From contig JAKLKB010000074.1 of assembly GCA_023150835.1 (NCBI GenBank), forward strand, positions 1-47,498: a DNA stretch of 47,498 nt. Direction: 5' to 3'. The notes below the pieces were generated by a model. That model made no database searches. It worked only from the letters and a program-made list of their open reading frames with translations, and was not told where the DNA came from. Source of the stretch: Myxococcota bacterium (lineage in GTDB: Bacteria; Myxococcota_C; UBA6777). Positions 1,679 through 25,882 of the stretch are shown here, piece by piece (the first letter of the stretch is position 1; each line of letters begins with the position of its first letter). The position numbers were made by a program, and so were the translations under genes.

Positions 1679-1830
1679 GTGAACCACCCAAGGAATCAGC
1701 ACTTGGGCTTCCTTTCTGCTTCACAGACGGCAGCGCCAACCCGGTGGGGGTTAGACGTCTTACGCAGTCTCCACAGACATCAAATCGGTGGGTTCCAACC
1801 CTAGAGAAGACAATGCTTGATGGAGCAGAT
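1679..1830 (-). ncRNA. Probable omega RNA (reRNA) at the tnpB 3' end
   Basis: In TnpB elements the guide RNA scaffold overlaps the 3' end of tnpB and ends at the element's right end, with flanking DNA as guide. Here the right end holds a CCCAAG...CTTGGG hairpin ending in GGTTCAC at 1679. By family rules the guide would start AAGAAGTCTCC (1678 downward) and the recognised motif would be TTAC. The 5' limit given is a guess; no transcript evidence exists. Confidence 0.5.
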
Positions 1831-2890
1831 TTTTGGCAGCGTTTTTGTCGCGGTCATGGTGTGTTCCACAACCTCCACATGTCCATGCTCTGTCTTTCAA
1901 GCGCAGAGATTCGTGTTTCCATCCACAACACGAACACAGCTTACTTGACGCGAAAAACCTCCCCACTTTCACCACCTCGCAGCCATACCAAGCACCTTTG
2001 TACCCACAAAACCGCACAAACTGTGACCACGCCGCATCATGGATAGACTTCGCCAGACGACGGTTTTTCACCATGCCGCGTACGTTCAAATCCTCAAACA
2101 CCAACAACGAATGCTCACGCACCAGACGTTTGCTGAGTTTGTGTTGAAAGTCGCGGCGTTGATGACTCACCCTTTCTGCTTGCTTGGCCAACTGTAGGCG
2201 TGCTTTCTCTCGATTTTTCGAGCCTTTCTTTTTGCGTTGAAGTTTGCGTTGGAGCTTGGCGAGTTTTCGCTCGCTACGTCGCAGCCATCGGGGATTTTCA
2301 ACTTGTTCTCCCTGCGAGGTGGTGAGGAAGTGTGTCAAACCCAGATCGAGACCGACAGCAGGGCGTTGTGAAGTGGATGGAAGAGAAGGGGAGGCTTCGA
2401 CTTCGCAGAGGATGGAAACAAAATAGTGACCGCTCTTGGTTTTCGAGACCGTCACATTCTTGGGCGTACCTTGAAGAGGGCGGTGAAGGATGAGCGCGAG
2501 CCCACCGAGTTTTGGAAGGTAGAGTTGTTCTCCTTTGAAGTGGAAACCTTGGGGGAAACGGATGGATTGTCGGTCATGCTTTTTTTTGGGCTTTGGGAAG
2601 CGTGCGTGTCCTTCAAAAAAGTGAGTGTAGGCACGTCCTAAGTCTTTGAGTTTTTGTTGAAGGCATTGAGAATGGGCATCGTTGAGCCAGAGGTAGTCGG
2701 GTTGTTGTTTAAGTTGAGTGAGAAGTTTGCACAGTTGGGAGAAAGAGAGGGACTTTTTGGTTTGTTGATAGACTTGGATGTGTTGTTGAAGTGCCCAGTT
2801 GTAGACAAAACGAGCATGGCCGAACTGAACGGCCAAGGCGGCTTCTTGTTCAACTGTCGGCTGGATACGGTACTGAAACGCTTGATACAT
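1760..2890 (-). CDS. tnpB: TnpB RNA-guided nuclease
   Basis: A 376-aa protein of normal TnpB length. The N-terminal helical and OB-like region (1-170) begins with FQYRIQPTVEQEAAL and FVYNW, typical of the family. The split RuvC nuclease shows GLDLGLTHFLT (Asp182), LLVFEDLNV (Glu266) and a C-terminal DRD (346-348). A zinc finger with CxxC pairs at 319/322 and 338/341 lies between the last two. All catalytic positions are present, so the nuclease looks intact. The start at 2890 has GAGAG upstream; the frame extends to 2947 without a better site. TnpB cuts DNA matching the guide next to the target motif and helps the element persist at the excised site. Confidence 0.93.
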   Translation of the reverse strand: MYQAFQYRIQPTVEQEAALAVQFGHARFVYNWALQQHIQVYQQTKKSLSFSQLCKLLTQLKQQPDYLWLNDAHSQCLQQKLKDLGRAYTHFFEGHARFPKPKKKHDRQSIRFPQGFHFKGEQLYLPKLGGLALILHRPLQGTPKNVTVSKTKSGHYFVSILCEVEASPSLPSTSQRPAVGLDLGLTHFLTTSQGEQVENPRWLRRSERKLAKLQRKLQRKKKGSKNREKARLQLAKQAERVSHQRRDFQHKLSKRLVREHSLLVFEDLNVRGMVKNRRLAKSIHDAAWSQFVRFCGYKGAWYGCEVVKVGRFFASSKLCSCCGWKHESLRLKDRAWTCGGCGTHHDRDKNAAKNLLHQALSSLGLEPTDLMSVETA

Positions 2891-2991
2891 CACGACTCTC
2901 ACACGCCTTTTTGTTGTGCGATGTATTGTTCCACCACAATCTTCCATTTGTCAACCCTGAACATGGGCTAAAGCCGCTAAAGCGTATAAAC

Positions 2992-3405: not shown

Positions 3406-6400
3406 TCACAATAATTTTTTGATGCGTTGTCTGTCGTGTTCGAGAAGGGATAGGATCTCTTGTCTGGATGGCAAGGCGCTTGACTCCAGCGCGACGTGAA
3501 AAACGGGGCTTCCTTTCGACCAGAGTTCGACGCTTTCCGTATGTTGATCGAAGTAGGTCGGAGAGGTCGTCACGCGCACTTCTTCGACGTGTTGCAAAGA
3601 ACGATAGCCGACCTCTTCTGGGCCAAGGGTTCTGATCGTCACGCCGTTGGGCATTAGATCGGGTTGTGCCAAGATGCGCTGGAGATCCCGTAGATCATAC
3701 GGTGGAGCAAGGGGTGGCAATTCTTGCCAAGTGTTTTCTAAGATCGCGTCCAAATCAAAACCCTTCTGTTGTAGATCTTCTACCTCTTGTTCAAGGCGAC
3801 GCAAGAGAGATTCCCTTGCGGCTTGTTTTTCTTCGGTGCGTGCAAGCGTCGCCTCTGTGATGCGTTGTGAAACACTCGACAAGATCGGCTGCAAGCGGCC
3901 CACAAACTGTGTGAACAGTTGGATCCGTTCGCGCAAGGCCGCGTACACATCAGACTCCACCGTGTCTTGGTAATGCAGATTCATCACGCGAATACGCGAA
4001 AAGGTTTGCCCCAATCGATCGATCCGACCGATCCGTTGCTCCACGCGCATTGGATTCCAAGGCATATCGTAGTTGATCAGCGCACCGCAGAATTGGAAGT
4101 TGAGTCCTTCTGCCGCTGCATCCGTACACAGCATGATCTCTGCTTTTCCCTGCAAGAAGATCGCCTTGGCTTCGTCGCGTGAGATCTTCACCCAATCCCC
4201 GCTCTCGGTTCGCTGCTCCCCGCCTTCACCGGAAAAGCAAACCACCTTTTGCCCGCTTTCTCCCACCAGATGTTGTCGCAAAAAGCGCATCGTGTCTGTG
4301 TACTGCGTGAACACAATACATTGGGGATAACCGGTTTGTTTGAGGGTTTGGATGCGTTCGTGAAGAGTCCGTGTCTTGGTGTCTGTGGGCAGTTTGCACA
4401 CCATCCGCAACAAACGCTGGATCTCTTGTTGTTCTTCGAGTTGCAAGACGCGTTGTTGTGCGCCTTCGATCTCATCCGTCCCAAACAGTTCGTCTTGAAA
4501 GCCTTCTTCTTCGACAAATGCCTCCTCCGAAGAGGCCGACGTCGTGCCTTGAAGTCGTTGCAGCCTTCGTTCGAGCGTCTTGCGCAGTGCCTCAAAGCTG
4601 CTCGCCATCCGTCGCCGATAGATGGTCATAATAAAACCTACCGCATTGCGTTCTTTCGCGGTGGCGCGGTTGTACATCTCCGAGATATAACGCTCGACCT
4701 CTTCGTATACCTCGCGCTCCTCGGGCTGCAAGTCGATAAACTGATCTTCGACGTAGCGCGTGGCGATCCGCGCTTTGAGTTTTCCTTCGGTGGCATAACG
4801 CCGCAAGGTCTCCCGCGTATGGCGCGAGATCAAGCAAGAGACCGGCGTGTATCCTCGCATCAAGCGGATCGCTGCGGCTCGTTCGTTGTCAGACCACTTT
4901 GTCCTTGGGGTCGTCGCCTTCTCGCGTAGGGTGTGCAAGAGGCTTTTTCGTCGGATGTTTCCCATCTCGGGCGTCAAGGAACGGGCTTGTTCTTCGCTCA
5001 TCTCCCCCCAATGCTGCTCGGTTGCTCGAAACAGGCGCACCATTGATTCGATCTCTTCTTTTTGCAGATCCGACCGCTCCGCCAACGCAAAAAAACGCTC
5101 GAATTCGCCCCACGTCCACTCCCTCGGAACCCCCAAAAGCTCCAGTAGATCCCATAACTCTTGCGGATGCACTTGCATCGGCGTGGCCGTCAATAACACC
5201 AAACCCTCCGTCCGAAGACGCAAACGACGCATCAACGACAACAATAAGTTGGGCTTGGCTTCTTGACCGCCTCCCGCTACCCCGCTGCGTCGTGCGTGGT
5301 GTGCTTCGTCCAACAGCACCAACGAGTACCGCGCCGCTTCCCGACACAGTTCTTCGCTTCGATCCGTTCGCCGCATCAGTTGGCTTGATACGATCACAAA
5401 CGGTTCTTTGTGCCACGCCGAACGCGAAACCGCACGCCATTTTTCGTGTTGCCCTCGGCTGTCATACCACACCAGATCGCTTCCCGTGTAGATCGGCCAG
5501 TTGAGGTTGAATTTCTCGCGCAGTTCGTACTGCCATTGCCGTGTGACTGCTTTGGGAGCCAAGATCAACGCCCGCTCTAGCTTCCCCGCCAACCACGCCT
5601 GCCGCAACAACAATCCCGCTTCGATGGTCTTGCCCAATCCCACCTCATCGGCGATCAATAGCTTTGGCGGCCACTTTCGATACATCCGCAAAAAGGCTCT
5701 CCTTTGGTGCGGCCACGCTTGGATCGCTGAGGTCACTTCTCCCACATCGTCGCCAATCCCCTCCAACATCGGCCCATGCACGATGATCCCCCATATCACC
5801 CGCTTTCTTTGATCTTCTTGGATGTAGTCCCCTATCGGTTCGTGGCCTATGTTCTGCTCGCTCGTCGGGAGGAGCGTGTCTTCTTTCTGCTCGTCTGGAT
5901 GCGTTGTCTCTGGCACGCCCTCTGTCACCGCGTCTTGTGCTTCAACGCGATGCTGGGCGTCCTTGGTGGGTTGGCTTTGCTCGCCGGCGGCGCTTGGACT
6001 GGCTTCGTCGCTTTGGTGGGCGGCAGCGCTTGGACTGGCTTCGTCGCTTTGGTGGGCGGCGGCGCTTGGACTGGTCTCCTTGCTTTGGTGGGCGGCGGAT
6101 GCTGTCGCTGCTGCGTTGTCTTTTTCCTGATGTGAGGGGGGGGCGACATTGCTTGCGTCTTTGCTCTGTGTGCTTTCGCGCAAGCGTCGGGGGAGTTGTC
6201 CCTCAGGCGGGGCAAATCGCAACAAGCCTTGTTCGAGAGCTTGGCCGACTTCCATCACCAGACAACGCGGCATCTGATCGGCCCAAAGTCGCTCGAAGTG
6301 GGTATCCTCTAGTTGCACCCGTTCATAATCGTTCTGCCACGAACGGAACACATGGATCCCCTCCCAGTTTCCTTGCCATCCTTGCTGAGTTTCGTTGACG

Positions 6401-6900
6401 CTTCCATGAAAGGCCAAACGATCCCCCGCGCTGTCTTCCATCACGCCCGCCTTTTCGTGAAAGATCCGCGTTGTATGCAACACAGGCCGCCGATGCTCAT
6501 CACACGGGATCGCCACCCGCACCGACAACAGTCCCTTCTGGATCATCCATGCCAAGAGTTCCAAACCATCATCTCGGGGATATCGTTCGTGAAACATCGG
6601 CAAAGATTCCCCCCATACCTCGGCCACCGCTTCGTCCAGCTTGCGTTCTCCGCGCTGTATCGCTTCCACGACCGCTTGGTTTAACGTGCAGCCCGTGACG
6701 AGGCGCATCTTGCCTTTTCGTTCCACAAAGGGTTCCAAGCCCCGCGCCACCAAACGCAACGCCCCCGGCGTAAAATACCCCGTCACCCGATCATAACGAC
6801 ACGCCAACGACAACGCCGGCACATAAAAGTCCCGTATCAGGTCGTCTTGCCCCGAATCGTAATACAGCTTCCATTGCATCTCGCGGAGTTTTGGCGTCAC
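3406..6900 (-). CDS. PLD-SNF2 helicase of Hma-like defence locus
   Basis: A 1164-aa DNA helicase with a phospholipase-D-like N-terminus. The PLD-like part (about 10-240) contains RIFHEKAGV (148-150 H-x-K) and FHGSVNET. A linker follows with three 12-aa repeats of HQSDEASPSAAA type (271-306). The SNF2 core has DEVGLGKT (418-425), LLDEAHHAR (DEAH 531-534) and the late motif QRIGRIDRLGQ. The predicted start is GTG at 6900 (GAGG six bases upstream); an ATG seven codons later is possible. It is the last gene of the operon, 33 bases after the methylase stop. In related loci helicase, methylase and ATPase occur together and are thought to act on invading DNA. A single HxK is seen, so nuclease activity would need pairing or is absent. 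Confidence 0.9.
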   Translation of the reverse strand: MTPKLREMQWKLYYDSGQDDLIRDFYVPALSLACRYDRVTGYFTPGALRLVARGLEPFVERKGKMRLVTGCTLNQAVVEAIQRGERKLDEAVAEVWGESLPMFHERYPRDDGLELLAWMIQKGLLSVRVAIPCDEHRRPVLHTTRIFHEKAGVMEDSAGDRLAFHGSVNETQQGWQGNWEGIHVFRSWQNDYERVQLEDTHFERLWADQMPRCLVMEVGQALEQGLLRFAPPEGQLPRRLRESTQSKDASNVAPPSHQEKDNAAATASAAHQSKETSPSAAAHQSDEASPSAAAHQSDEASPSAAGEQSQPTKDAQHRVEAQDAVTEGVPETTHPDEQKEDTLLPTSEQNIGHEPIGDYIQEDQRKRVIWGIIVHGPMLEGIGDDVGEVTSAIQAWPHQRRAFLRMYRKWPPKLLIADEVGLGKTIEAGLLLRQAWLAGKLERALILAPKAVTRQWQYELREKFNLNWPIYTGSDLVWYDSRGQHEKWRAVSRSAWHKEPFVIVSSQLMRRTDRSEELCREAARYSLVLLDEAHHARRSGVAGGGQEAKPNLLLSLMRRLRLRTEGLVLLTATPMQVHPQELWDLLELLGVPREWTWGEFERFFALAERSDLQKEEIESMVRLFRATEQHWGEMSEEQARSLTPEMGNIRRKSLLHTLREKATTPRTKWSDNERAAAIRLMRGYTPVSCLISRHTRETLRRYATEGKLKARIATRYVEDQFIDLQPEEREVYEEVERYISEMYNRATAKERNAVGFIMTIYRRRMASSFEALRKTLERRLQRLQGTTSASSEEAFVEEEGFQDELFGTDEIEGAQQRVLQLEEQQEIQRLLRMVCKLPTDTKTRTLHERIQTLKQTGYPQCIVFTQYTDTMRFLRQHLVGESGQKVVCFSGEGGEQRTESGDWVKISRDEAKAIFLQGKAEIMLCTDAAAEGLNFQFCGALINYDMPWNPMRVEQRIGRIDRLGQTFSRIRVMNLHYQDTVESDVYAALRERIQLFTQFVGRLQPILSSVSQRITEATLARTEEKQAARESLLRRLEQEVEDLQQKGFDLDAILENTWQELPPLAPPYDLRDLQRILAQPDLMPNGVTIRTLGPEEVGYRSLQHVEEVRVTTSPTYFDQHTESVELWSKGSPVFHVALESSALPSRQEILSLLEHDRQRIKKLL

Positions 6901-6933
6901 GGCGCACCTCGCTTTGTGGTGTCGATCTCTTCG

Positions 6934-9900
6934 CTATGGCTTCCCAAACAGCCCCAATTGGCGCGGTTTGACCGTGATCTCTCCCAATGCCAAACGCCGC
7001 AGCATCTCCAGTTTCTCGAAGTCCACCGCAAACGCTGCCGCCCCCACAAGTGACTTGCCGCTTTCGTCCTCTTCGTCTTCGTCGTCGGCTTCTGCTCCAC
7101 CCTCCAAGGCTTCGTCTTCCTCTTCCTCCGCTTCTTCCGTCCCCAACGCTGCTTGGAGAGCTTGTTTTTCTTCTTTGACTTGGGCTTGGCTCAGGATCTG
7201 TTGTTCTTTCATGGACGGCGGCACAGGCAAGACTTCCAACACTGCCTCCAACGCATCCAAGAACCGTTGATCTTTGTCCAACTTCATCTTCTCCATCGCT
7301 TCGCGGGCAACCGAAAGGTCTTGTTGGCGTGCCAGTCCCGCCAAGTAATGCAGCGCGTCCAACATCGTGTCTTTGCCATCGTTCGAGCGGAGCTTTTTCT
7401 TTTCCCTTCGCGTCGCGCTGTCCCACAGCATCAAGTTGGAACCCTTCTTCTCCGCGATGTACCCCACGATCTGCGTCTCCAATTCAACGCCCACCACCCG
7501 CGCAAGCTGCATCCCTTCGTCGTAAGGAAACGTCGGCGCTCGAAAGGCATCCCACGCCAACACAAACCACTCCAACACCTTATCCAAGTCAGCGCGGCGC
7601 TCCTTGTTAAAGAGGGAGTCCAATCGCCAGTTCTTGACTTCTGCACGAGCCGCATTCAAGGCATCTTCGGGCGTGACCGCGTAGGGATCTTCACCTTTTT
7701 CGACGTGGGCGCGGGGATTGTCGCGGTAGATATCCGGCCAATGCTTTGCAAACTCCCCCAACGCTCGACCAAAACACGACAAGTACAGATCCACCCCGCC
7801 GATCTCATATCCCTTGAATTCCTCCACGCTTTCGCGGACGCGCTTGCGCACCTTCGGCTCCAGATCCTCCCAAGCGATCTTCTCCCCGTCGGCTTGTTCT
7901 TGCTTCGGGCGGCACACCAAAAAGATCGTACTCTTGGCCGCTGCCTTGTCTTTGATGTGCATGCTGCCTTCGGCTTCGGTGTTGATCGGCCACGATGCCG
8001 TGATCTCAAACCCTGCATTCAACAAGCCTTGGGCCAAGGCATCCCACGCCCCCGTCGCCTTGTGCGTGAACATCAACGTCAAGATCCCGTCCGCCTTCAA
8101 TACCCGCCGACATTCCGCAAAGATATCTTGCATCCGCTGCCGATAATCTTCATACGCCAGCTTCTTTGCCCCCTTCGCTCCCTTGAATTTCGCAGGGTTT
8201 GCCACCGCTTCTTGTTCTTTGTCCGTCAACTCTCTCCAAAACAGATCCGGCAACACATAGCCCGCCGTTCGCTTCAGCCACACATAAAAAAAGTCCGATA
8301 ACTCCGCATACATCACATTGTCATAGTAGGGTGGATCCATCACCACCGCATCCACCGTACCCGCATCCACATGGTATAGCGAGGACGCCGATTGGCAGGT
8401 CACTTCCACCTTCGGCGGCGTCCATCCCTCTTCACCCTCCGTCGTTTGCGCTCGCGCAGCCCGCCCCTGTTCGCTGAACAACTCCCCATTTGCTCCCGTC
8501 TCTCCACCCTCTCCCAACGCCCGATACGCCGCCTTTGCATCCATCCCGGGACGAACCAAACTCATCAATTCCAACACCGCTTTCTTGGTTTGCTCAAACG
8601 CCCAATCGTATCCCATCCCCACGATCAGCGGAGCCATCTCCGCATGAGACCAACAAAACGCAAAGTCGTGTCGGTTGAATGTATTTGCGACCACTTCCCT
8701 TGTTGGCATCCAGACAGACATCCGCGAGTTGTAATTCAGCAGCTTGTCGAGGGCGAAGCCGAGGTAGACAAAGGCGGCTTGGGTGGGTTCGTCGAGGCGT
8801 CCAGCTTCGCGCTCTTCATCGACCAATGCGCGGAAGATCTCGACGCTGGTGACATGACAGAGCAGTTGGCGCGGGGAGAACATATCGCGCCACAGAGGCA
8901 TACCGTAGATGCGGGGGCGTTCATCGTTGACGATCTCGGGAAAGGCTTCGTTGGGAATGCAGTCGAAGGCTTCCCAATGGGGCATTCTTTCAGTGAGGTG
9001 TTGTTGGACGAGGTCTGCCACATCGTCATCGGGTCGTGGTGCGCGGTAATCGCGGATCCATTTTTCGCGGTTGCCAACGAGGGTGCGTTCTTTGAAGACG
9101 ACGGCGAAGAGTTGTTCGCCCATGTGTCCGGCTTGGGCTTGTCGTTTGATCTCGTCGCCGTCGATGTTGGCGCGGCAATCGTCGAAAGGACAACGGGCTG
9201 CGCCGCGCTTGACGGTGCCTTCGGATTGGTGGCTGGCTTTGCGGACGATCTCGAAGCGGCAAACACGCTGCGGGCTGGTCTGGGGCAACAAACGCACGCC
9301 CGTTCCACCCGGAGCCAAGCGCCAGTTCGGTGACAGCGGAACCAAGCCGCTACACTCCGGACAGGTGATCGTCCGCGCCCAGAGATAACCGTCGGGTATG
9401 CAATGTTTTCCTTCGTCTGGAAAAAAAGAGTGAAGCGATTCTCTTACCCTTTGAAGGAAGACAGATGAGAGCCGATCTATGGCCGACACCGTGGCGAAAC
9501 CAACAGACAAAGGAAACTTTAGCGTAGCATCCAAAATAAGCGAAGCAACAGGATTTAAGTCGTTGGCAAAAGTATCTATTCCCAATCGAATCGACTCAAA
9601 CGGGATACTTCCGCCCCCTGCTGTTGGATCAAGAACAACGGGACTCGACGTGCCTAACGTATCCTCAAGCCAGTCTTTTAATGTTCTTTTTTCTGATTCC
9701 GTTGGAGCATAAGAAAATGCACGAGAGTATCCGTAGGCTGCTGCCCCCAAACGGACGCCTGCTTTTGTTGCTGCGTCGATGCGTTTTCGAGAAGCGACGG
9801 GGTCGCCGTGGATGCCGAGGAGGTGGAGAAAGAGATCGTGATCCGCGTTGGCGGGGAGGAGGGAGGCGAGGACAGCAGCGCGGGAGGCGACGAGGGGGCG

Positions 9901-10029
9901 GCGAGCCCACCAGACATGGAGCCGATTGGGAGCGGGGAAAGGGGTCATGGGCGTTCGTTCGCGGAGGCTTTCAAGGCTGAGAGCGGCGATGGGTAGCCAT
10001 TGTTCGATGAGTCGGGGGGAATGGGTCAT
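6934..10029 (-). CDS. DUF1156 (COG1743) adenine-specific DNA methyltransferase
   Basis: A 1031-aa modification enzyme. The N-terminal DUF1156 signature reads RLIEQWLPIAALSLES with LHVWWARRP (about 6-45). The SAM-binding motif is DPTAGGGSIPFES (134-146), with ANDLNPVA next. Cysteine pairs (CPEC at 223-226; CPFDDC at 280-285) suggest a zinc ribbon. The catalytic motif is DPPYYD (565-570), typical of N6-adenine or N4-cytosine amino-methyltransferases. An acidic linker at about 985-1010 precedes the C-terminus. It most likely marks host DNA for the helicase/ATPase partners. The coding strand changes base composition within the gene near 8,700. A 285-bp gap separates it from the GGDEF gene upstream. 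Confidence 0.9.
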   Translation of the reverse strand: MTHSPRLIEQWLPIAALSLESLRERTPMTPFPAPNRLHVWWARRPLVASRAAVLASLLPANADHDLFLHLLGIHGDPVASRKRIDAATKAGVRLGAAAYGYSRAFSYAPTESEKRTLKDWLEDTLGTSSPVVLDPTAGGGSIPFESIRLGIDTFANDLNPVASLILDATLKFPLSVGFATVSAIDRLSSVFLQRVRESLHSFFPDEGKHCIPDGYLWARTITCPECSGLVPLSPNWRLAPGGTGVRLLPQTSPQRVCRFEIVRKASHQSEGTVKRGAARCPFDDCRANIDGDEIKRQAQAGHMGEQLFAVVFKERTLVGNREKWIRDYRAPRPDDDVADLVQQHLTERMPHWEAFDCIPNEAFPEIVNDERPRIYGMPLWRDMFSPRQLLCHVTSVEIFRALVDEEREAGRLDEPTQAAFVYLGFALDKLLNYNSRMSVWMPTREVVANTFNRHDFAFCWSHAEMAPLIVGMGYDWAFEQTKKAVLELMSLVRPGMDAKAAYRALGEGGETGANGELFSEQGRAARAQTTEGEEGWTPPKVEVTCQSASSLYHVDAGTVDAVVMDPPYYDNVMYAELSDFFYVWLKRTAGYVLPDLFWRELTDKEQEAVANPAKFKGAKGAKKLAYEDYRQRMQDIFAECRRVLKADGILTLMFTHKATGAWDALAQGLLNAGFEITASWPINTEAEGSMHIKDKAAAKSTIFLVCRPKQEQADGEKIAWEDLEPKVRKRVRESVEEFKGYEIGGVDLYLSCFGRALGEFAKHWPDIYRDNPRAHVEKGEDPYAVTPEDALNAARAEVKNWRLDSLFNKERRADLDKVLEWFVLAWDAFRAPTFPYDEGMQLARVVGVELETQIVGYIAEKKGSNLMLWDSATRREKKKLRSNDGKDTMLDALHYLAGLARQQDLSVAREAMEKMKLDKDQRFLDALEAVLEVLPVPPSMKEQQILSQAQVKEEKQALQAALGTEEAEEEEDEALEGGAEADDEDEEDESGKSLVGAAAFAVDFEKLEMLRRLALGEITVKPRQLGLFGKP

Positions 10030-10314
10030 GGTGAGGAAGCTCCTGTGTGGGTGTGCGAAGAGAAGGGAACGGGGATGTTTGTAAGATAAAGGCGGAAGGA
10101 AAGCAAGCGGGAGGATCGTGTGACCCTCACCCCCCGGCCCCCTCGCCTCTACGAAGTAGGGAGAGGGGGAGAAGAGAGTACGAAAGGAGCGGATGATAGG
10201 GAGAGAAAGGACGTTTTGCGGTGGGATGGGGGCGTTCTTTGGGCGGTGGATGTGGGGAGGAGAGGCGTGGGATGGGGTGTTTCGGAGAAGGGGTAGTTAG
10301 GAGAAGGGGAGTAG
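10030..10314. repeat. Intra-operon gap with dispersed repeat
   Basis: This gap lies between the GGDEF and methylase genes and holds no convincing gene. At about 10119-10172 there is a REP-like palindromic sequence (CCCTCACCCCC... with CCCCCTC pairing to GAGGGGG) of a kind common as dispersed repeats. Near 10289-10327 GTAGTTAGGAGAAGGG occurs twice in tandem. The hairpin might attenuate transcription between the two halves of the operon. Confidence 0.6.
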
Positions 10315-11004
10315 TTAGGAGAAGGGTTGTTCGCAGATCGGGCAGGACTTGAGTTGTTTGTTTGTTGGGAGGCGGTCAGCAGGGACAGAACAAGAGGTGG
10401 TGGTGTTGCATGTGGGGCAACGTTGGCGGAGAGTTTCGAGTTTTTGAGCGGAAAGCTCTTCCGACCAACCGACACAGCAGCCAGCACCTTGCTGTTTGGC
10501 GATCTGTAAGGCGATCTCTGCACGGGATTTGAGTTCGGGGGGCGATGGAATCTGTGTGCCGTGGTCTGTTGAGGCGTAGCCGAAACTCATACCAAAAAGG
10601 ATGGTTTCTTTTTCGTGGCGAGCAGGAGCTTTGGCGAAGACTTGAGCCTGTTGTATGAAAGCTTGCAATTGCTGTTTGGGGAGCAACAAGGCAAATTCAT
10701 CGCCGCTGATATGGAATGCTCTGATATGCAAGCCGTCCACGAAAAGTGTTTGGAGAATGCGTCCAGCTTGCGCGATGACGGCATCTCCTGCATCGTGTCC
10801 GAATTGGTCGTTGATGCTTTTGAAACCGTTGAGATCGCCACAAACAAGAACATCGGGATGTTGTGGATTGCGCCCGATATTTGTCAGCGCGTCCTGAAAG
10901 GCGAGGTTGTTTTGGAGGGGGGTTTTGTCGTCTTGATAGACGAGTTCAAGGGTTTTTTGGGCGGTTTGGTAGAGTTTGTTCAAGGCTTCTTGGATGTGCT
11001 TCAT
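10315..11004 (-). CDS. GGDEF-domain protein (possible nucleotide cyclase) in defence operon
   Basis: A 229-aa protein that is almost only a GGDEF domain. Expected motifs are in order: DDKTPLQNNLAF (25-36), GDLNGFKSIND with Asp57 and FGHDAGD (68-74), then SGDEF (100-104), LLLP, and GMSFGYAS (138-145). SGDEF is an accepted variant of GGDEF, so metal and substrate ligands look intact. No RxxD inhibitory site precedes it, and no sensor domain or membrane segment is attached. The C-terminus has CPTC (196-199) and CPIC (221-224), a likely zinc ribbon. The ATG at 11004 overlaps the upstream gene's stop as ATGA. The product (c-di-GMP or other) cannot be told from sequence. A GGDEF enzyme between defence genes is unusual. 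Confidence 0.85.
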   Translation of the reverse strand: MKHIQEALNKLYQTAQKTLELVYQDDKTPLQNNLAFQDALTNIGRNPQHPDVLVCGDLNGFKSINDQFGHDAGDAVIAQAGRILQTLFVDGLHIRAFHISGDEFALLLPKQQLQAFIQQAQVFAKAPARHEKETILFGMSFGYASTDHGTQIPSPPELKSRAEIALQIAKQQGAGCCVGWSEELSAQKLETLRQRCPTCNTTTSCSVPADRLPTNKQLKSCPICEQPFS

Positions 11005-11432
11005 GCGAGGTTCCACTGGCTTTTTTGGATGGATTGGAGTTTTTGGGGAAGTTGGACGTAGACGAGATCGCCAAAGAGCCAATCTTCGAGGTTTTCCACA
11101 TTCCATCCTTCGGCTTGTGGTGCTTGGCTGCGGAGCGTCCAAAAGCTCCCGCCGTAATCAAACAAGACTTCGGCGATGTAGGGGCCGCGTCGGTAGAATT
11201 CGATCATCTGGCATCCGGCGCGTTCGAGTTCTTGTTGGAGGGCGACGGTAAGAGGGAGAGGTTCGTCATTTGCGGCGGCATGTCCGAAGAATCCGCCAGC
11301 GAGAGCGCCGACGGGGTGGCGCGTGAGAGCAAGACCAGCGAGAGCGCCAAGAAGTGCTGCGCCGCTTTTTTGATCGCGGCGTGGTCGGGGTTCGCGGTAA
11401 GGGACGTTGGTTGGATAGGTGACTTGGGTCAT
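11001..11432 (-). CDS. Small hypothetical protein with hydrophobic glycine-rich segment
   Basis: A 143-aa protein I cannot assign to a family. Residues 10-22 are proline/arginine-rich. Residues 24-52 are hydrophobic and rich in Gly and Ala (GAALLGALAGLAL and GALAGGFFGHAAA), resembling a glycine-zipper or one to two short membrane spans. The soluble C-terminus (60-143) has aromatic residues such as FDYGGSFWTL and LEDWLFGDLVYV. GAGGAGG lies upstream of the ATG at 11432. Its stop overlaps the start of the GGDEF gene, so the two are probably translationally coupled. By position it could be a membrane partner or effector of the GGDEF protein; that is inference. Confidence 0.75.
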   Translation of the reverse strand: MTQVTYPTNVPYREPRPRRDQKSGAALLGALAGLALTRHPVGALAGGFFGHAAANDEPLPLTVALQQELERAGCQMIEFYRRGPYIAEVLFDYGGSFWTLRSQAPQAEGWNVENLEDWLFGDLVYVQLPQKLQSIQKSQWNLA

Positions 11433-11512: not shown

Positions 11513-12061
11513 TTAGTGTGTTTCGTTGAGAAGGATGCGAAGGGCTTTGAGGACGCGACGAGGTTTGGGTCGGTGCATGGCCATGCCGAGCCAGTAGGAG
11601 ACTTCTTGTTTGGACATGGCCTCGATACCTTGGAGACATTGGCGCATGAGATCGCGGTTGCGCATGGGGGCGAGTATACGGAAGACAAGGCCGAGAAGGA
11701 GGGCGGTGTGTTCGGAGAGAGGAAAGGAGGCGCGTTGTTGGGAGGTGAGGTGATCGGTTTCGATGCGGTCGATGCTCCAGATCTGGCGGAGTTGTGGATA
11801 AAAATAGCGGAGGGAGCGTCCAGAGAGTCCAGCGATGCGGACAGGTTCGGCGAGGTTGGGGGTGAGAGAAGAAGGAAGCTGCCAGATCTCCATGCGCTGT
11901 TCGAGGGAGGTCATTTGCCAGACGCGGAGTTCAAAGAGGACTTGGGTGGTAGCGATCTTCGCGTTGTTTCGGCGGGTGGGGGGTTTGCGTGGAGGTTGTG
12001 AGGGTGGGTTGGTCTCGATGGTATCGGGGAGGGTTGGAGAGGTGTTGTGTTTTTTGAGCAT
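11513..12061 (-). CDS. Hypothetical 182-aa protein in defence operon
   Basis: No family recognised with confidence. The first 40 residues are rich in Pro, Thr and Asn and look disordered. The rest looks like a compact helical domain: VLFELRVWQM, then LSGRSLRYFYPQLRQIW, FPLSEHTALLLGLVFRILAPMR, and MSKQEVSYWLGMAMHR near the end, finishing with a basic helix. No signal or membrane segment. It begins at ATG 12061, 58 bases after the ATPase stop and 80 bases before the 143-aa gene, so it belongs to the same transcript. It may be a structural or DNA-binding partner of the ATPase. Confidence 0.75.
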   Translation of the reverse strand: MLKKHNTSPTLPDTIETNPPSQPPRKPPTRRNNAKIATTQVLFELRVWQMTSLEQRMEIWQLPSSLTPNLAEPVRIAGLSGRSLRYFYPQLRQIWSIDRIETDHLTSQQRASFPLSEHTALLLGLVFRILAPMRNRDLMRQCLQGIEAMSKQEVSYWLGMAMHRPKPRRVLKALRILLNETH

Positions 12062-12119: not shown

Positions 12120-15100
12120 TCAAGTGTCTTTGGTGGAAACGGTCAAGGATATCTTGCATTTGTTAGGGGTGACTTTTTCGAGTGGGCGGATACGGGCAGA
12201 GAAGGCTTGTGGATCAGGGAGGGGTAAGGGGGTGGAGAAGTCAAAGGAAAAGGTGGCGTTGATCTCGACCTCTGCGCGTCGTTGGCTTTGTAGGCTTTGC
12301 AAGAAGGGGAGGACGCTGCGGATATCGTCGGGATGGCCTTCAAAAGAGAGGATGCCTTCGCTGTTATTGGGTTTGGCGTAGAAGGTGGCGCGGAATTCGA
12401 GGTGGGGAGAGGCGTCTTTGAAGACGTTGGAGGATTGTGTGAGCCATTGTGTAAAGTCGGGGAGGTGAAAGAGTTGGCAAGAGAAAGAGCGGATGGAACG
12501 GGCTTTGCGTTGTTGGAGGGATTGTTCGAGGAAGCGCAGTATTTCAGGGAGATTGTTTTCGTGGTCGAGGGTGAAGGTCTCGGGCGTGAAGATTCGGCTG
12601 GTTGGAGGCGGCGTGATCTCGTCGTCTTCTGGGGGTGGAGGGGTTTTTCCTGCGGATGTTTCTTTGGGGGGGGGGATGACACGGGGCCAGAGAGCGGTTT
12701 CTTCGGCTTTTTTGAGGGTGTAGAGGAATGCGTTTTCATCGATACGGATGGCGGCGGAGGGGTCGCCCGGGCCGTAGGTGAGGTCGTCGTAGCGGTAGAC
12801 AAGGAGGTTGTCTTCAATGCCTTTGCGGATGGAGGCAAGGAAGGTGTTGTCGTCGAGAAGGAAGGGGAGTTTGGGGTTTTTGTAGAATTGGTTGCGGAGA
12901 TCGGAAGTGGAGGCCGTGCCGCGTTGTGCGAGGGTGGTTTTGTGGATCAGGAGGTTGGGAGCGGGTGGGTGATCGGTGGGGAAGTAGAGATGGTTGCAGT
13001 CTTTGAGGGCTTGGGTGATGGCTTCTTGTCCTTTGCCGGGCTTGTTGGAGGATTGGCTTTTTCCGGCGAGGTTGACGTGTGTGAGCCAGAGTCCGTCTTC
13101 GAGGGGATCGGAAGCGGAGGGATAGAAGAGGTGGCGGTATGCGTTTTGGATGGCGAGAGTGCAATCGTTGGAAGATTTGTCGTAATCTTCTTTGACTTTT
13201 TTTTGCTGGTGTGGGGAGAGGTCTTTGAGTTTGTCGGGGGTGTTGAGTGCGCGGAGGGCAAGGTGGCGTTTGATGGCGTCTTTCATTTCGGAGACTTTGT
13301 TTTTGTCAGCGAGCAAGAAGACAAGGTGGTTTTGGAGTTGTCGGAAGTTTTTGTTTGTGCCGGCATGGAGGAAGATATCGCGGACGCGGGCGGGGATTTT
13401 GGGTGTGGAGTCGGTGGTATGGGAAAAGGGTACGGTATCGTAATTCATAAGGAGTAGGCGGGGTTTGTTGCGATTGGGGTCATCGGGAACGTCGGAGGGA
13501 TCGCCGGGAAAGGAGAGGGTATCGAGGGTTGGAGGTTTGGAGAAGGTGGTTTCGATGTGATCGTCGAGTTCTTTGGTGATGGCTTCTTCGGAGAGGTGTG
13601 ATTCTTCTTGTCGGATGATCTGGTTGAGGTTGGCTTCGGAGAGGAAAGAGAGGGGTTTGTGGGGGTCGTCGTTGAGGTAGGCTGCTTGGTTTTGGAATTT
13701 GTGGAGGGCGTCTTTGAGGAAGGCGCTGTCATGGGAGGGTGCGAGGGCAGCGAAGGTGAGTTGTTCGGGGGAGAGACCGCGTAAGTTGTTGTTGAAGGCG
13801 AGGGTGTGCCAAAAGATGGTGCGTGCGACGTGGGAGGCGTAGGGAGGCATGGCGGGAAATTGATATTGTTCGCGGTCGAGGATTTGTGCGAGGGCATCGG
13901 CGGAGAAGAGGGGTTGGTTTGTGTCGCGGTAGTGGGAGATATCTTTTCGGATGGCGGGTTCGTAGTGTTGGAGTTGAAGGCGGGTGAGGATCTCAGCGCG
14001 GATGGGTTCGTGTCCGGGGTCGATGTGGTGGGGATGGAGGGCGAAGGTGTGATTGGGTTTGTTTTGCCAGAGTTGGGAGACAGCGCGAGAGAGCAAGCGC
14101 AACATACCGCGAACGCGTTGAAAAGTGCTAAAGGTGGAGAGTTTGTCTTTGAGGATGTGCATAAGATCGGGGTGGAAGGGATAATCGCGGAGAAAGCGAG
14201 CGTGGAGATCAGGTTCGGAGCCATCGGACTTGGCGAAGACTTGGCGCATCTTTTCGTCGAGTTGTTCTTTTTTCCAAAGCGCAGTGTAGGCTTTGACGAT
14301 CTGCGCGGCTTTTTTTGTGTCGATGGAGGAGAAGAGGCGTTTTTGGAGGACGAGGGCGGTTTCATCGGTGGAAGTGGGTTCAAGGAGGGTGGCTTTTCGT
14401 GCGGAGACGCTTTCGAGTTCTTCAAATTCTTTGGCGATGGCGGTGTTTTCGTCGTTGTAGGCATCGGAGCCTTTGAGATCTTTGCCGACGGCGAGGGAAA
14501 AGATGAGGGCAGTTTGGGGTGTGCCTTCGATGGCTTTGAAGAGGGAAGAGAGGAAGGGGGCGAATTGTGCGCTTTGCTTGTGGCCTTTTACGCGGCGGAG
14601 GTAGATGGCCATTTCATCGAGCAGGATGATGGAGGGTTGGGTTTTCAGGAGAGCGGCGAATGTTTCTGCACCGGGTGCGGTGTGGGAGACGTCGCTTTCT
14701 TTGAAAGCGCTGTAGCCGTCGATCCCGGCGAGTTGATAGGCAAGGAAGCCCCAAGGGGTGTAGATTTTGATGCCATCGCGGGTGATGCCGTTGGTGGGGT
14801 CGGCGTTTTCGCCATCGAAGGCTGCGACGCGAGCGGGTTGTTTGGGAAGGAGAGAGGGGTCGAGAAAGTCGGAGGGGTTGGGGACGCCGCGCATACCGTT
14901 GGCGGCGTGGTAGAGAGCGATGAGTCCGTGAGTTTTACCGCCGCCGAACTGCGTATCAAGGCGAAAGATAGAAGAGACTTCTTGGGCGGAGCCTTGGAGT
15001 CGAAGGAGGACTTGTTTGAGGAGGGTTTTTAAGCCTTGGGTGGGGTGGGTTTGGGAGAAGAAGCGCTGTGGATCAAGGTATTCGGGTATGGCTGAACCAT

Positions 15101-15209
15101 CGATAACTTTGGAAAGGTCAGCGGCGAGAGATTCATCGCGGAGGGTTGAAGCGAGGACGTCTGCGCGAGGCGTACAGGCGTCGAAAAGGGTGGGGGGGTG
15201 TTGGCTCAT
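12120..15209 (-). CDS. DUF499 (COG1483) AAA-type ATPase of Hma-like defence locus
   Basis: A 1029-aa ATPase and the first gene of the operon. The start ATG at 15209 has AGGAG seven bases upstream. The N-terminus (LFDACTPRADVL) and FRLDTQFGGGKTHGLIALYH (Walker A GGGKT at 89-93) are hallmarks of DUF499 proteins. Walker B is IILLDEMAIYL (195-200). A long helical middle follows, then a proline-rich hinge (TPPPPEDDEITPPP, about 860-890) and a C-terminal domain. DUF499 ATPases are found beside DUF1156 methylases and PLD helicases in archaea and bacteria and are predicted antiviral components. The coding strand is strongly C- and A-rich. Confidence 0.9.
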   Translation of the reverse strand: MSQHPPTLFDACTPRADVLASTLRDESLAADLSKVIDGSAIPEYLDPQRFFSQTHPTQGLKTLLKQVLLRLQGSAQEVSSIFRLDTQFGGGKTHGLIALYHAANGMRGVPNPSDFLDPSLLPKQPARVAAFDGENADPTNGITRDGIKIYTPWGFLAYQLAGIDGYSAFKESDVSHTAPGAETFAALLKTQPSIILLDEMAIYLRRVKGHKQSAQFAPFLSSLFKAIEGTPQTALIFSLAVGKDLKGSDAYNDENTAIAKEFEELESVSARKATLLEPTSTDETALVLQKRLFSSIDTKKAAQIVKAYTALWKKEQLDEKMRQVFAKSDGSEPDLHARFLRDYPFHPDLMHILKDKLSTFSTFQRVRGMLRLLSRAVSQLWQNKPNHTFALHPHHIDPGHEPIRAEILTRLQLQHYEPAIRKDISHYRDTNQPLFSADALAQILDREQYQFPAMPPYASHVARTIFWHTLAFNNNLRGLSPEQLTFAALAPSHDSAFLKDALHKFQNQAAYLNDDPHKPLSFLSEANLNQIIRQEESHLSEEAITKELDDHIETTFSKPPTLDTLSFPGDPSDVPDDPNRNKPRLLLMNYDTVPFSHTTDSTPKIPARVRDIFLHAGTNKNFRQLQNHLVFLLADKNKVSEMKDAIKRHLALRALNTPDKLKDLSPHQQKKVKEDYDKSSNDCTLAIQNAYRHLFYPSASDPLEDGLWLTHVNLAGKSQSSNKPGKGQEAITQALKDCNHLYFPTDHPPAPNLLIHKTTLAQRGTASTSDLRNQFYKNPKLPFLLDDNTFLASIRKGIEDNLLVYRYDDLTYGPGDPSAAIRIDENAFLYTLKKAEETALWPRVIPPPKETSAGKTPPPPEDDEITPPPTSRIFTPETFTLDHENNLPEILRFLEQSLQQRKARSIRSFSCQLFHLPDFTQWLTQSSNVFKDASPHLEFRATFYAKPNNSEGILSFEGHPDDIRSVLPFLQSLQSQRRAEVEINATFSFDFSTPLPLPDPQAFSARIRPLEKVTPNKCKISLTVSTKDT

Positions 15210-15392
15210 TGGATTCTCCTGACGGACGCGAGATGGAGGGGTTGCAAAGGGCGCGTTGATGAAGAGATAAAGAGGCCCAGAGATCGGGGATCTTTACGGC
15301 GAAGTGGGTTCGCTGTAGAACAAAGACTCCATTGACGGATGTATACCCGAAACGAAGCAGCGGCACAAAAAGAAAAGCAAGGAGCGCAGAAG
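15210..15392. promoter_or_regulatory. Divergent intergenic region between ATPase operon and EVE gene
   Basis: Only 183 bases separate two divergent starts, so promoters for both should lie here, and one regulator could control both units. I find no convincing -35/-10 pair on either strand. A TTGACG at about 15334 on the plus strand has no good -10 at 16-18 bases. Confidence 0.45.
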
Positions 15393-15869
15393 ATGCAACA
15401 TTGGTTGTTGATGTTCCGACCCGATACGTACGGAAAAGTGCGAGAGCATGGGAAGATTGGAGTTCGGGAAGGCGCGAGAAAGCGGCTATCGGGGATGAAA
15501 ACGGGGGATCGGTTTGTGACGTATTTATCGCGAGTGCAGTTGTTGGATGGGTATGGTGAGATCACAAGCGAGGTATTCGAGGAAGATACGCTGATCTTTG
15601 CTTCGGACAAGCTGTATCCGTACCGTTGCCGTGTGGCGTTTGACAAGGTGGGTGCGGAAGTTCCGGTGGGTGATATCTTGTGGTTTTTGGATGCGTTTGA
15701 GGGGTTGAGTACGACGACGCCGACCAACATCATGTTTTGCAAGGGCGGGGTGATGGAGATCAGCAAGAAAGATTACGAGACGTTGTTGGATATGATCCAA
15801 CATCCGCCCAAGTCGGGCAAGAGCAACACCGCAGCATACCGCACCCACGAGAAAAGGCACACCGCGTAG
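15393..15869 (+). CDS. EVE-domain protein (modified-base reader family)
   Basis: A 158-aa protein that is a nearly complete EVE domain (2-133). It opens MQHWLLMFRPDTYG and continues with GARKRLSGMKTGDRFVTYL, LLDGYGEITSE and YPYRCRVAF, the strand pattern of the PUA/EVE fold. EVE domains bind modified bases in DNA and are common next to restriction and other defence genes. AGGAG lies ten bases before the ATG at 15393; an open extension to 15339 has no site. It faces away from the ATPase operon across a shared intergenic region, consistent with a role in sensing modified DNA. The C-terminal 25 residues are polar and probably disordered. Confidence 0.88.
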   Translation: MQHWLLMFRPDTYGKVREHGKIGVREGARKRLSGMKTGDRFVTYLSRVQLLDGYGEITSEVFEEDTLIFASDKLYPYRCRVAFDKVGAEVPVGDILWFLDAFEGLSTTTPTNIMFCKGGVMEISKKDYETLLDMIQHPPKSGKSNTAAYRTHEKRHTA

Positions 15870-22972: not shown

Positions 22973-25882
22973 ATGCAAGCCTTCATCAAGAATCGTTTTT
23001 TTCGGTCGCTCCCCATGCGGATGGGTTTGTGTTTCCTGCTTTTGAGCCTTCCCGCTTTCTCGTTGTTTCTCGGATGCGGTGAATGCCGCAATGATAGCGA
23101 TTGTCCATCGACTTCTCTTTGCACAGAAGGCGCATGTGTCGAAAAAAACCAACCCCCTGTGCGCCGCCCCCCCGGCTCGGAGTGCGTAGACAGCGAGCGC
23201 CGCGCTTGTTACAACGGACCCACCAAGACCCAAAGCATCGGCATCTGCAAAGCTGGTCAACAGACTTGCCAAAACGGCCAATGGAGCGCGTGTGCGGGAG
23301 AAGTGACGCCCGCTGAAAAAGAAGAATGTGATGGCGTAGACAACAACTGCGACGGCCAAGTCGACGAAGGCTGCACTTGCAAAAACGGCGACAAACAAGC
23401 CTGTTATACAGGAAGTGCCGAAACACGCGCCAAAGGCGAATGCAAAGACGGCGAACAGATCTGCATCAACGGACTCTGGGGCGAATGCTTGCAACAGACC
23501 CTTCCCCAAGCCGAAGTATGCGACGGCAAAGACAACGATTGCAACGGAAAAATCGACGACGACGTCAAAAAAAGCTGCCAATCACAGTGCGGACTCGGCG
23601 AAGAGATCTGCCAAAACGGCCAATTCCAACCCTGCAACGCACGCACTCCAAGCCCCGAAAAATGCGGCGACAACATCGACAACGATTGCAACGGCTCCAC
23701 CGACGAAGGCTGTGAGTGTGCCCCCAGTACCTCCCGCGATTGCTACACAGGCCCTCCAAGCACCCAAGGCGTCGGCCCTTGCACCCAAGGCAAACAGACC
23801 TGTAGCGCCGATGGCAAGTGGCAAAGCTGCACAGGGCAAGTTACCCCCCAAGTCGAGCAATGCAACCGCAAAGATGACGATTGCAACGGGCGTATCGACG
23901 ACAACTTGACCCGTCCCTGTCAACGCGGTTGCAATACCGGCAAAGAAACCTGTAGCGATGGAACATGGAAAGCCTGTGATGCAAAAGCCGCAGATGCCGA
24001 AGTATGCGACGGGAAAGACAACGACTGCGACGGAAAAACCGACAACTTGGTCGGTGGTGGCACTTGTGAATGCCTTGTCGGACAAAAAGAATTCTGCTAT
24101 GACGGCCCCGCAAACACCGCAGGTATCGGCCTTTGCGCACGCGGTGAACGGATCTGCCAGTCCACAGGCAAGTGGTCTCCTTGCCTCAACCAGATCACCC
24201 CATCACCCGAGATCTGCGACGGCAAAGACAACAACTGTGACGGACAAGTCGACAACAACACCACCGGCGGAAAACTCGACCGCGATTGTTACGATGGGCC
24301 CGCAGGAACCGATCAACGTGGCGTCTGCAAAAAAGGCAAAGAGACCTGCAACAACGGGGTCTGGAGTGTATGCGTCGGACAGATCAAGCCCACCACCGAG
24401 ATCTGCGACAACAAAGACAACAACTGCGACGGCAAAATCGATGAAGGCGTCTCACGCGATTGTTATAGTGGACCCGCAGGGACCGAAGGCACAGGTATCT
24501 GTAAAAAAGGCTTGCAAACCTGTACGGCGGGTGTTTGGGGGGCTTGCCTTGGCGAAGTCGCCCCGCGCACCGAGGTCTGCAACAACCTTGACGACGATTG
24601 CAACGGCGTCAAAGACGACAAAGGCGCTTGTGACGTCTGCCAAAGCGGTCAGAGCCAAGCCTGCTATACAGGCCCCCAAAGCACCCGAAACACCCTCCCT
24701 TGCAAAGAAGGCACCTCCACCTGCATCAACGGTCAATGGGGTACTTGCACAGGCGAAGTTAAACCGATCTCCGAGACCTGCAACAACAAAGACGATGATT
24801 GCGACGGAAACATCGACAACGGCATAACGCGGCCCTGCTCGAACAACTGCGGCACAGGCACAGAAACCTGCTCCGCTGGGACATGGATCAACTGCAACGC
24901 CCCCAAACCAACCACCGAGATCTGCAACAACAAAGACGACGACTGCAACGGCCAGATCGACGATGGTCTCTCCTGCACCATCCTCGCGACGGGAGATATC
25001 GCAGGAACCGCGATCCTCTGGAACCCCTTTACTCGCACCAAGCTCCAAACCATCGCCAGTCAAGCCGAGATCTACGTCATCGCCTTTAGCCCCGACAAAC
25101 AATCCTTTGCCGTCGGAAACACCAACCAAGTCGAACTTCGTTATGCGGCCACAGGCGTCCGCTATCGCACCCTCAATTTCACAGGGATCGCCCGATCGAT
25201 CGCGTGGTCCAAAGACAGCACCCGCATCGCCGTCGGAACCAGCGCAGGAACCGCCACCATCTGGAATGCCACCACAGGCGCGATTATCCGCAGCGGCCTT
25301 ACGCATCCCTATACTGTGCGCGGCCTTGCCTTTCACCCCACCCAAGACCTGCTTCTCTCCACCAGCGACAACATCGTCTACTTCTGGAATCCCACTACAG
25401 GCGCACAGATCCGCCAAACCCCCGTCACCTTCACCATCTACGCCCTTGACCTCAGCCCCGATGGAAACTCCTTCTTGATCGGCGGATACCACGTCAGCAA
25501 CATCTATCCCGGTTTCCTCCAACTCTGGGATATCACCAACACCAGCGCCCCCACCCAAAAACTCTCCTTTACCGTCCCCGCCATCGTGTACAACTCGCGC
25601 TTTAGCCACGATGGAACGCACGTTATCGCTGCATACCTCGATGGCACCAGCGTTTGGCGTGTCCAAACTCAACAAAAAGTCGCCGAGATCAAACTTCCCG
25701 GACATTGGGTCTATACCGCCGATCTCACTCCCGACAACAAAACCCTCGCCGCCGGCGCTCGCACCAACGCCGCACTCAACGGCATCCTCTTCTTGTGGGA
25801 TATCTCTCAAAGTCCGCCCGTTGAACTCCTTAAAAACACCGATCACACCCGCTATCTCTGGGGAATGGACTTCCGCCCCTAA
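22973..25882 (+). CDS. MopE-type motif and WD40 repeat lipoprotein
   Basis: A 969-aa exported protein. The signal peptide ends FLGC (lipobox near residue 27-30). Residues 35-665 contain ten MopE-like metal-binding motifs such as ECDGVDNNCDGQVDEG and VCDGKDNDCNGKIDDD, alternating with cysteine-rich modules of form CYTGPxxTxGxGxCKxGxQTC. The rest (668-969) is a WD40 propeller: ATGDIAGTAILWNPFT, VYFWNPTTGAQIR, LFLWDI and others. The Asp/Asn-rich motifs probably bind Ca or Cu. Many Myxococcota surface proteins use these motifs, but joining them to a propeller is unusual. GAGG lies 6 bases before ATG 22973. It is probably anchored in the outer membrane as a binding scaffold. Confidence 0.88.
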   Translation: MQAFIKNRFFRSLPMRMGLCFLLLSLPAFSLFLGCGECRNDSDCPSTSLCTEGACVEKNQPPVRRPPGSECVDSERRACYNGPTKTQSIGICKAGQQTCQNGQWSACAGEVTPAEKEECDGVDNNCDGQVDEGCTCKNGDKQACYTGSAETRAKGECKDGEQICINGLWGECLQQTLPQAEVCDGKDNDCNGKIDDDVKKSCQSQCGLGEEICQNGQFQPCNARTPSPEKCGDNIDNDCNGSTDEGCECAPSTSRDCYTGPPSTQGVGPCTQGKQTCSADGKWQSCTGQVTPQVEQCNRKDDDCNGRIDDNLTRPCQRGCNTGKETCSDGTWKACDAKAADAEVCDGKDNDCDGKTDNLVGGGTCECLVGQKEFCYDGPANTAGIGLCARGERICQSTGKWSPCLNQITPSPEICDGKDNNCDGQVDNNTTGGKLDRDCYDGPAGTDQRGVCKKGKETCNNGVWSVCVGQIKPTTEICDNKDNNCDGKIDEGVSRDCYSGPAGTEGTGICKKGLQTCTAGVWGACLGEVAPRTEVCNNLDDDCNGVKDDKGACDVCQSGQSQACYTGPQSTRNTLPCKEGTSTCINGQWGTCTGEVKPISETCNNKDDDCDGNIDNGITRPCSNNCGTGTETCSAGTWINCNAPKPTTEICNNKDDDCNGQIDDGLSCTILATGDIAGTAILWNPFTRTKLQTIASQAEIYVIAFSPDKQSFAVGNTNQVELRYAATGVRYRTLNFTGIARSIAWSKDSTRIAVGTSAGTATIWNATTGAIIRSGLTHPYTVRGLAFHPTQDLLLSTSDNIVYFWNPTTGAQIRQTPVTFTIYALDLSPDGNSFLIGGYHVSNIYPGFLQLWDITNTSAPTQKLSFTVPAIVYNSRFSHDGTHVIAAYLDGTSVWRVQTQQKVAEIKLPGHWVYTADLTPDNKTLAAGARTNAALNGILFLWDISQSPPVELLKNTDHTRYLWGMDFRP

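Follow-up and report, generated by a model that had tools for sequence, protein, structure and literature searches.

Results

A GGDEF gene and a small gene are coupled within a BREX-related operon

In a stretch of DNA comprising 47,498 nucleotides, hereafter called the window, a gene encoding a GGDEF protein and an overlapping gene encoding a 143-aa protein occupy the space between the DUF7680 and DUF1156 genes of a BREX-related (BR) operon. Our tentatively preferred explanation is that the pair represents accessory anti-phage cargo of a horizontally acquired BR/Hma-like operon, in which the GGDEF protein or its product controls the 143-aa partner. Judged by its genes, the pair is a candidate nucleotide-signalling cassette and a singleton.

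All genes of the operon reside on the minus strand in the order DUF499, DUF7680, 143-aa gene, GGDEF gene, DUF1156 methylase and PLD-SNF2 helicase (Table 1). The initial annotation had placed the pair between DUF499 and DUF1156. Both flanks were confirmed, but the DUF7680 gene, which intervenes on the DUF499 side, had been overlooked. The ATG of the GGDEF gene overlaps the stop codon of the 143-aa gene (ATGA) exactly as had been described, with correct coordinates, and couples the two genes.

Table 1. Features of the operon in the window and of the corresponding segment of locus L123
Feature	Position	Strand	Basis
PLD-SNF2 helicase (HmaA-like / Type-2 BR-like)	3406..6900	-	PF00176 2e-17, PF00271 7e-16, PF13091 (PLDc_2) 1.2e-4, below curated cut-off; PADLOC PLD_Helicase 9e-87, HmaA 3e-53; DEAH box
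DUF1156 adenine-type DNA methylase (HmaB-like), DPPY motif	6934..10029	-	PF06634 2e-15; PADLOC HmaB 1.4e-68
GGDEF-DUF1156 gap, 285 bp, C-rich, imperfect hairpin	10030..10314	.	fold z = -1.7, modest
GGDEF (SGDEF) protein, 229 aa, C-terminal CPTC...CPIC	10315..11004, ATG at 11004	-	PF00990 9.7e-22
143-aa orphan	11001..11432	-	strong Shine-Dalgarno sequence, coding statistics, hydropathy, AF2 models
DUF7680 subunit	11513..12061	-	PF24728 2.2e-36; neighbourhoods of related operons
DUF499 AAA+ ATPase (HmaC-like)	12120..15209	-	PF04465 4.9e-37; PADLOC HmaC 6e-97
L123, DUF7680	4980-5435
L123, slot cargo	5445-6816
L123, DUF1156	6821-9769

The host operon is a Type-2-like BR system

The DUF499 ATPase, the DUF1156 N6-methylase and the SNF2 helicase were all identified by Pfam and PADLOC, and their scores as HmaC, HmaB and HmaA/PLD_Helicase bore out the Hma-like nature that had been assumed for the operon. 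It is a DUF499-centred BR system, also called Hma, of the kind described previously (PMC8565338, PMC12839542); BR is a recent renaming of Hma. NCBIfam antiphage equivalog scores of the operon proteins were far under the cut-off. Like Type-2 BR systems, the operon unites a DUF499 ATPase, a DUF1156 methylase and a PLD(HKD)-SNF2 helicase, whose PLD nuclease lies at the N-terminus (Table 1). The PLD-type motif of the helicase consists of HxK (residues 148-150) and GSxN, but has E at the expected HKD Asp position. DUF3780 has been reported in 98% of Type-2 BR systems (PMC8565338, PMC12839542), whereas a stand-alone DUF3780 gene was absent from the core locus in the window and the small subunit matched DUF7680 only (Pfam). 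Since DUF7680 replaces this hallmark, we termed the operon Type-2-like and not Type-2.

The order DUF499-DUF7680-DUF1156-helicase recurs in close relatives carried by Sinorhizobium, Aminobacter and Nostoc plasmids, with overlapping or abutting genes in the former two and, in Nostoc, a VapC pair ahead of the helicase gene. Related operons likewise keep DUF7680 in the position between DUF499 and DUF1156; it belongs to the host BR system. It was not found in four genomes of the host's own family, suggesting that the operon was probably acquired horizontally. As a separate observation, cyanobacteria, Chloroflexota, Proteobacteria and haloarchaea have a BR subtype of which DUF7680 is a conserved small subunit (window; L020-L024, L037-L126), occupying the place of DUF3780 in Type-2 BR; the main text of PMC12839542, which describes BR systems, does not name it.

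The gap between the GGDEF and DUF1156 genes has no second copy in the genome, and its hairpin is only modestly stable and lacks a T run. A 186-aa ORF at 15206-15766 probably does not represent a gene (GC1/2/3 of 0.43/0.54/0.59, no Pfam match). The window further contains, a short way downstream of the helicase gene, a gene for TnpB (IS605 OrfB/Cas12f-like; 1760-2947, minus strand) and, at 22973-25882 on the plus strand, a gene for a 969-aa protein that combines WD40 repeats with metal-binding repeats of the MopE type.

The space between DUF7680 and DUF1156 is a recurrent slot for accessory genes

We compiled 84 DUF7680 loci from protein matches in plasmids, genome contigs and viral contigs, and from DUF7680 matches in 1,571 genomes taken evenly from four phyla. 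A DUF1156 gene could be placed downstream of DUF7680 in 71 of them. When a distance of more than 400 bp was taken as extra DNA, 41 of these 71 loci (about 58%; e.g., L052, L059, L063, L064, L094, L107) contained additional sequences, a descriptive figure for which one duplicate was removed and related loci were otherwise all counted. The gap of L051 was under-measured, its cargo methylase having matched the DUF1156 profile. Thus, accessory genes recurrently occupy a slot between DUF7680 and DUF1156 in BR operons.

Most of the recognisable cargo consists of defence or toxin-antitoxin genes. The scanned slots contained Avs3a (6e-193), Septu PtuA (8e-121), an RT_UG6 reverse transcriptase (3e-22) and an STK/ORC-type protein. 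Also present were Schlafen/AlbA-HATPase proteins, AAA-PDDEXK_9, a type II restriction endonuclease (1.1e-85) with a methyltransferase, a BrxD-like protein, and toxin-antitoxin genes of the HicB, PIN and MazF types. DUF488, DUF4351, transposases and many unknown proteins made up cargo that has no defence assignment. A slot cassette shared by several related loci (L116:13039-14471, L126:323-1679; Chloroflexota genomes) encodes a small protein with an N-terminal zinc ribbon and a larger protein giving no PADLOC match. In the slots L050:2767-5157 and L053:3143-5551, a gene for a protein of 233 aa accompanies one for a metallo-beta-lactamase-fold protein, the L050 proteins being weakly similar to RTasMBL/LmuA (PADLOC).

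Locus L123 comes from a genome of the same phylum as the Verrucomicrobia locus L045. Its slot encodes a CD-NTase (PADLOC oligonucleotide-cyclase, 2.5e-108; PDB CD-NTases, 8e-23) and a 171-aa protein. The stop of the CD-NTase gene overlaps the ATG of the second gene by 8 nt, and DUF1156 begins 4 bp after the latter. The 171-aa protein has two strong hydrophobic segments (2.03 and 1.99); this 2-TM protein appears SLATT-like by eye only, and a PDB sequence search with it gave nothing. According to these sequence features, L123 contains a two-gene CBASS embedded inside a BR/Hma operon. A cassette of a cyclase and a membrane protein in the DUF7680-DUF1156 position therefore exists in nature.

Co-occurrence of the GGDEF gene and the 143-aa family at related loci, which had been proposed as a check, was not observed: beyond the window, none of the 84 loci contained a GGDEF gene or a relative of the 143-aa gene. 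As a control of sensitivity, a GGDEF profile built without the window protein recovered this protein at 1e-24. The initial annotation had regarded such an absence as speaking against its proposal. The cargo varies from locus to locus, however, and for this reason the absence of the pair from related loci does not refute a role in defence. Because the slot repeatedly hosts defence genes and in L123 even a cyclase with a membrane protein, we take the GGDEF/143-aa pair as probable defence cargo.

The GGDEF protein is a divergent member of the ordinary diguanylate cyclase type

The GGDEF protein possesses the motifs DLNGFKSIND, GHDAGD and SGDEF but neither a sensor domain nor an RxxD at the I-site position; the domain match and a residue check agreed in this respect with the earlier description. 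A feature that had been overlooked is the C-terminal CPTC...CPIC, a Cys-Cys pair resembling a zinc ribbon. The roles of individual residues in GGDEF domains are established from work on PleD. Compared to 25 GGDEF domains of the host and its relatives, the protein has kept the acidic residues for metal binding and catalysis, the Asn and Asp that contact guanine, and the Lys of the AK motif, the first and second of which characterize diguanylate cyclases. Changes were found in the first G of GGDEF (S), the Arg of ARYGGDEF (H), the GR following AK (GA) and the NR motif (NN). Hence, the motifs, which had been called intact, are so with regard to the catalytic acidic residues, but not at these four sites.

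Pfam, NCBIfam and a PDB sequence search assigned the protein to the ordinary diguanylate cyclase GGDEFs, with PleD, DgcN/YfiN and TpbB as best matches. Grouping with such enzymes had been named beforehand as an argument against a special role, and in the tree the protein indeed fell among housekeeping GGDEFs, though on the longest branch of the sampled set (3.02 vs a median of 0.73). We regard it, on the strength of its sequence, as a very divergent protein of the ordinary diguanylate cyclase type. No relative above about 39% identity, and that over part of the length, was found in the host phylum, and no close relative in four genomes of the same family. The host genome encodes 16 other GGDEF domains.

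These data bear on a somewhat unlikely alternative, according to which a diguanylate cyclase of the ordinary kind was acquired horizontally and, along with its small partner, is a passenger in a tolerant slot, serving biofilm- or motility-type signalling or having no role in defence. The best matches and the tree position fit this interpretation, as do the genes without defence assignment in other slots and the restriction of the pair to the window locus. It is countered by the predominance of defence and toxin-antitoxin genes among the recognisable cargo, by the lack of a sensor domain and by the distance of the protein from its relatives in the host phylum.

An Asp344-type residue (PleD numbering) marks producers of c-di-GMP, while Hypr enzymes with Ser or Thr at this position make cGAMP (PMC9140294). 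As the guanine-specificity Asn and Asp are retained, the predicted product is c-di-GMP and not cGAMP. A Hypr enzyme was dismissed; the Asp is kept in GHDAGD and the Asp344 equivalent shows no exchange for Ser or Thr. Likewise, a Panoptes mCpol or Cas10 palm cyclase was discarded, as there was no PADLOC match and Pfam, searched up to E 5, matched nothing but GGDEF and zinc-finger noise. Pfam and PADLOC detected no CD-NTase (SMODS) of the CBASS type in the pair, and Pfam and NCBIfam no DNA-binding domain.

Three of the changes, Arg to His ahead of SGDEF, GR to GA and NR to NN, concern accessory active-site residues and could weaken the predicted catalysis. VCA0965 was inactivated when the first GGDEF position was made Ser, but ECA3270, an SGDEF enzyme, is active (PMC3974145). 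If catalysis were lost, the protein might be a degenerate sensor of GTP or c-di-GMP that, rather than raising an alarm, acts jointly with the 143-aa protein to tune or silence the BR operon. The loss of three conserved arginines and the first Gly, the C-terminal Cys pair, which suggests a binding role, and the location ahead of DUF1156 with its 285-bp gap would suit such a regulatory arm. We nevertheless consider it unlikely given that all catalytic acidic and both guanine-contact residues are retained, that SGDEF enzymes can be active and that a DNA-binding domain is lacking.

The 143-aa protein is an orphan with a weakly hydrophobic segment

The 143-aa ORF is preceded by a strong Shine-Dalgarno sequence (GAGGAGG, 6 nt ahead of the ATG), and shows coding-like GC1/2/3 values (0.70/0.45/0.57) and host-like codon use, which indicates a real gene. 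Its product has a basic N-terminus followed by a Gly/Ala-rich, weakly hydrophobic stretch with GxxxG spacing (residues 24-53). A hydrophobic segment of 29 residues had been reported here. The Gly/Ala richness was confirmed, but the segment is weak, with a best 19-residue Kyte-Doolittle mean of 1.31 (under 1.6, and well apart from the two peaks of the CBASS partner in L123), and TRHP interrupts its middle.

AF2 modelled the whole protein poorly (pLDDT 58.5) and the C-terminal 91 residues better (73.4), as an alpha-beta-beta-beta-alpha domain. The structure prediction that had been suggested thus yielded a usable C-terminal model but no significant fold match: the arrangement is common, Foldseek returned nothing under E 0.001, and the best VIA-align score (HPF; Z 5.8, rmsd 4.5, 78 aligned) was tied with those of the actin-capping protein and dsRBDs, so that no fold was assigned. 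A match to the cGAMP-binding Acb4 (Z 4.4, rmsd 4.3, 76 aligned) was rejected, being at the same noise level. No S-2TM-beta, SLATT, STING or Cap15-type match and no known receptor domain were detected, although such families may still apply. The weak, interrupted segment and the apparently soluble domain did not sustain the membrane effector that had been postulated; as far as the sequence goes, this function is possible.

No homologue was found by pattern scans of genome_contigs and viral_contigs, which demand near-exact 8-residue words and may miss divergent homologues, by tblastn of plasmids and phages, or in whole genomes, five of them from the phylum, 14 with related operons and 297 from a different phylum. 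Two borderline matches were discarded, one in L002, which covers only about 41 residues and whose frame runs antisense to a long ORF, and one in L068, which contains a stop and has scattered identity.

In a further alternative, the glycine-zipper-like 143-aa protein would be a toxin, silenced by the GGDEF protein or by a product steadily made by it, in a self-contained module resembling toxin-antitoxin systems or the guard logic of Panoptes. There are two overlapping genes, the slot is rich in toxin-antitoxin genes, and in Panoptes a palm-domain cyclase restrains its partner, a small effector, through its product. Yet the GGDEF protein is not mCpol/Cas10-like (no Pfam or PADLOC match), and the 143-aa protein has neither a clear TM segment nor an S-2TM-beta match, making this explanation quite improbable.

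Discussion

Our preferred explanation, accessory anti-phage cargo, would add a second, signalling layer to a restriction core. The DUF499 ATPase, DUF7680, the DUF1156 methylase and the PLD-SNF2 helicase would restrict unmethylated DNA, while the GGDEF protein would make a cyclic dinucleotide, presumably c-di-GMP. This molecule, or the GGDEF protein itself, may control the co-translated 143-aa protein, which could be an effector or a sensor switching the cyclase. The recurrence of the slot with its defence cargo including the CBASS pair of L123, the coupling by the ATGA overlap and the strong Shine-Dalgarno sequence, the retained residues together with the activity of an SGDEF enzyme, and the signs of acquisition (DUF7680 and a close GGDEF relative are missing from four same-family genomes) argue for it. 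There is also a precedent for GGDEF as a rare cyclase swap in conflict systems (PMC7159879). On the other hand, the pair is a single instance, slots also carry genes without defence assignment, the exchanged residues could impair the enzyme, a c-di-GMP alarm would cross-talk with the 16 other GGDEF domains of the host, clear TM segments and known receptor domains are missing from the 143-aa protein, and the gene order, with the 143-aa gene first, is the reverse of that in L123.

Auxiliary effectors and nucleases embedded in BR core loci are already known (PMC12839542); the main text of that paper mentions no GGDEF, cyclase or CBASS cargo. A two-gene CBASS likewise combines a cyclase and a small protein encoded by overlapping genes, but its enzyme is a CD-NTase and its partner a 2-TM effector, and the order is reversed. 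In Panoptes (PMC12657218) a small, sensorless palm-domain (GGDEF-fold) cyclase, OptS, also adjoins a small effector gene. However, OptS is Cas10-like with the GGDEF motif nearly gone and OptE is a clear 2-TM beta protein, whereas the window protein belongs to the family of ordinary diguanylate cyclases. With stand-alone enzymes of this family (PleD/DgcN-type, ECA3270) it shares the catalytic and guanine-specificity residues; it differs in the missing sensor and I-site, the Cys pair, the home in a defence operon and the longest branch. GGDEF domains fused to VMAP/vWA conflict proteins (PMC7159879) are likewise rare signal generators of a conflict system, but they are parts of MoxR-vWA ternary systems and not separate genes in a BR operon. 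The initial annotation knew of no Hma locus with these two genes, and in agreement with this, the main texts of the literature searched contained no GGDEF in such systems, no BR/Hma operon in which a stand-alone GGDEF gene is coupled to a small one, no DUF7680 slot and no CBASS pair within such a slot.

Whether the pair stands for a new class of anti-phage nucleotide-signalling cassettes, modular in the DUF7680-DUF1156 slot of BREX-related operons, where CBASS, Avs, Septu and other systems take turns, and in which a dedicated small protein is joined to a canonical-type GGDEF (not a CD-NTase, Pycsar cyclase, Cas10 or mCpol), is doubtful, albeit conceivable. If true, the commonest bacterial second-messenger enzyme family would have been recruited to innate immunity as a stand-alone alarm. 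To our knowledge, GGDEF in immunity is otherwise known only as a rare fused domain of other conflict systems. Regardless of the role of the pair, the DUF7680-DUF1156 slot, many of whose occupants are unannotated, is of practical use as a hunting ground for new defence modules.
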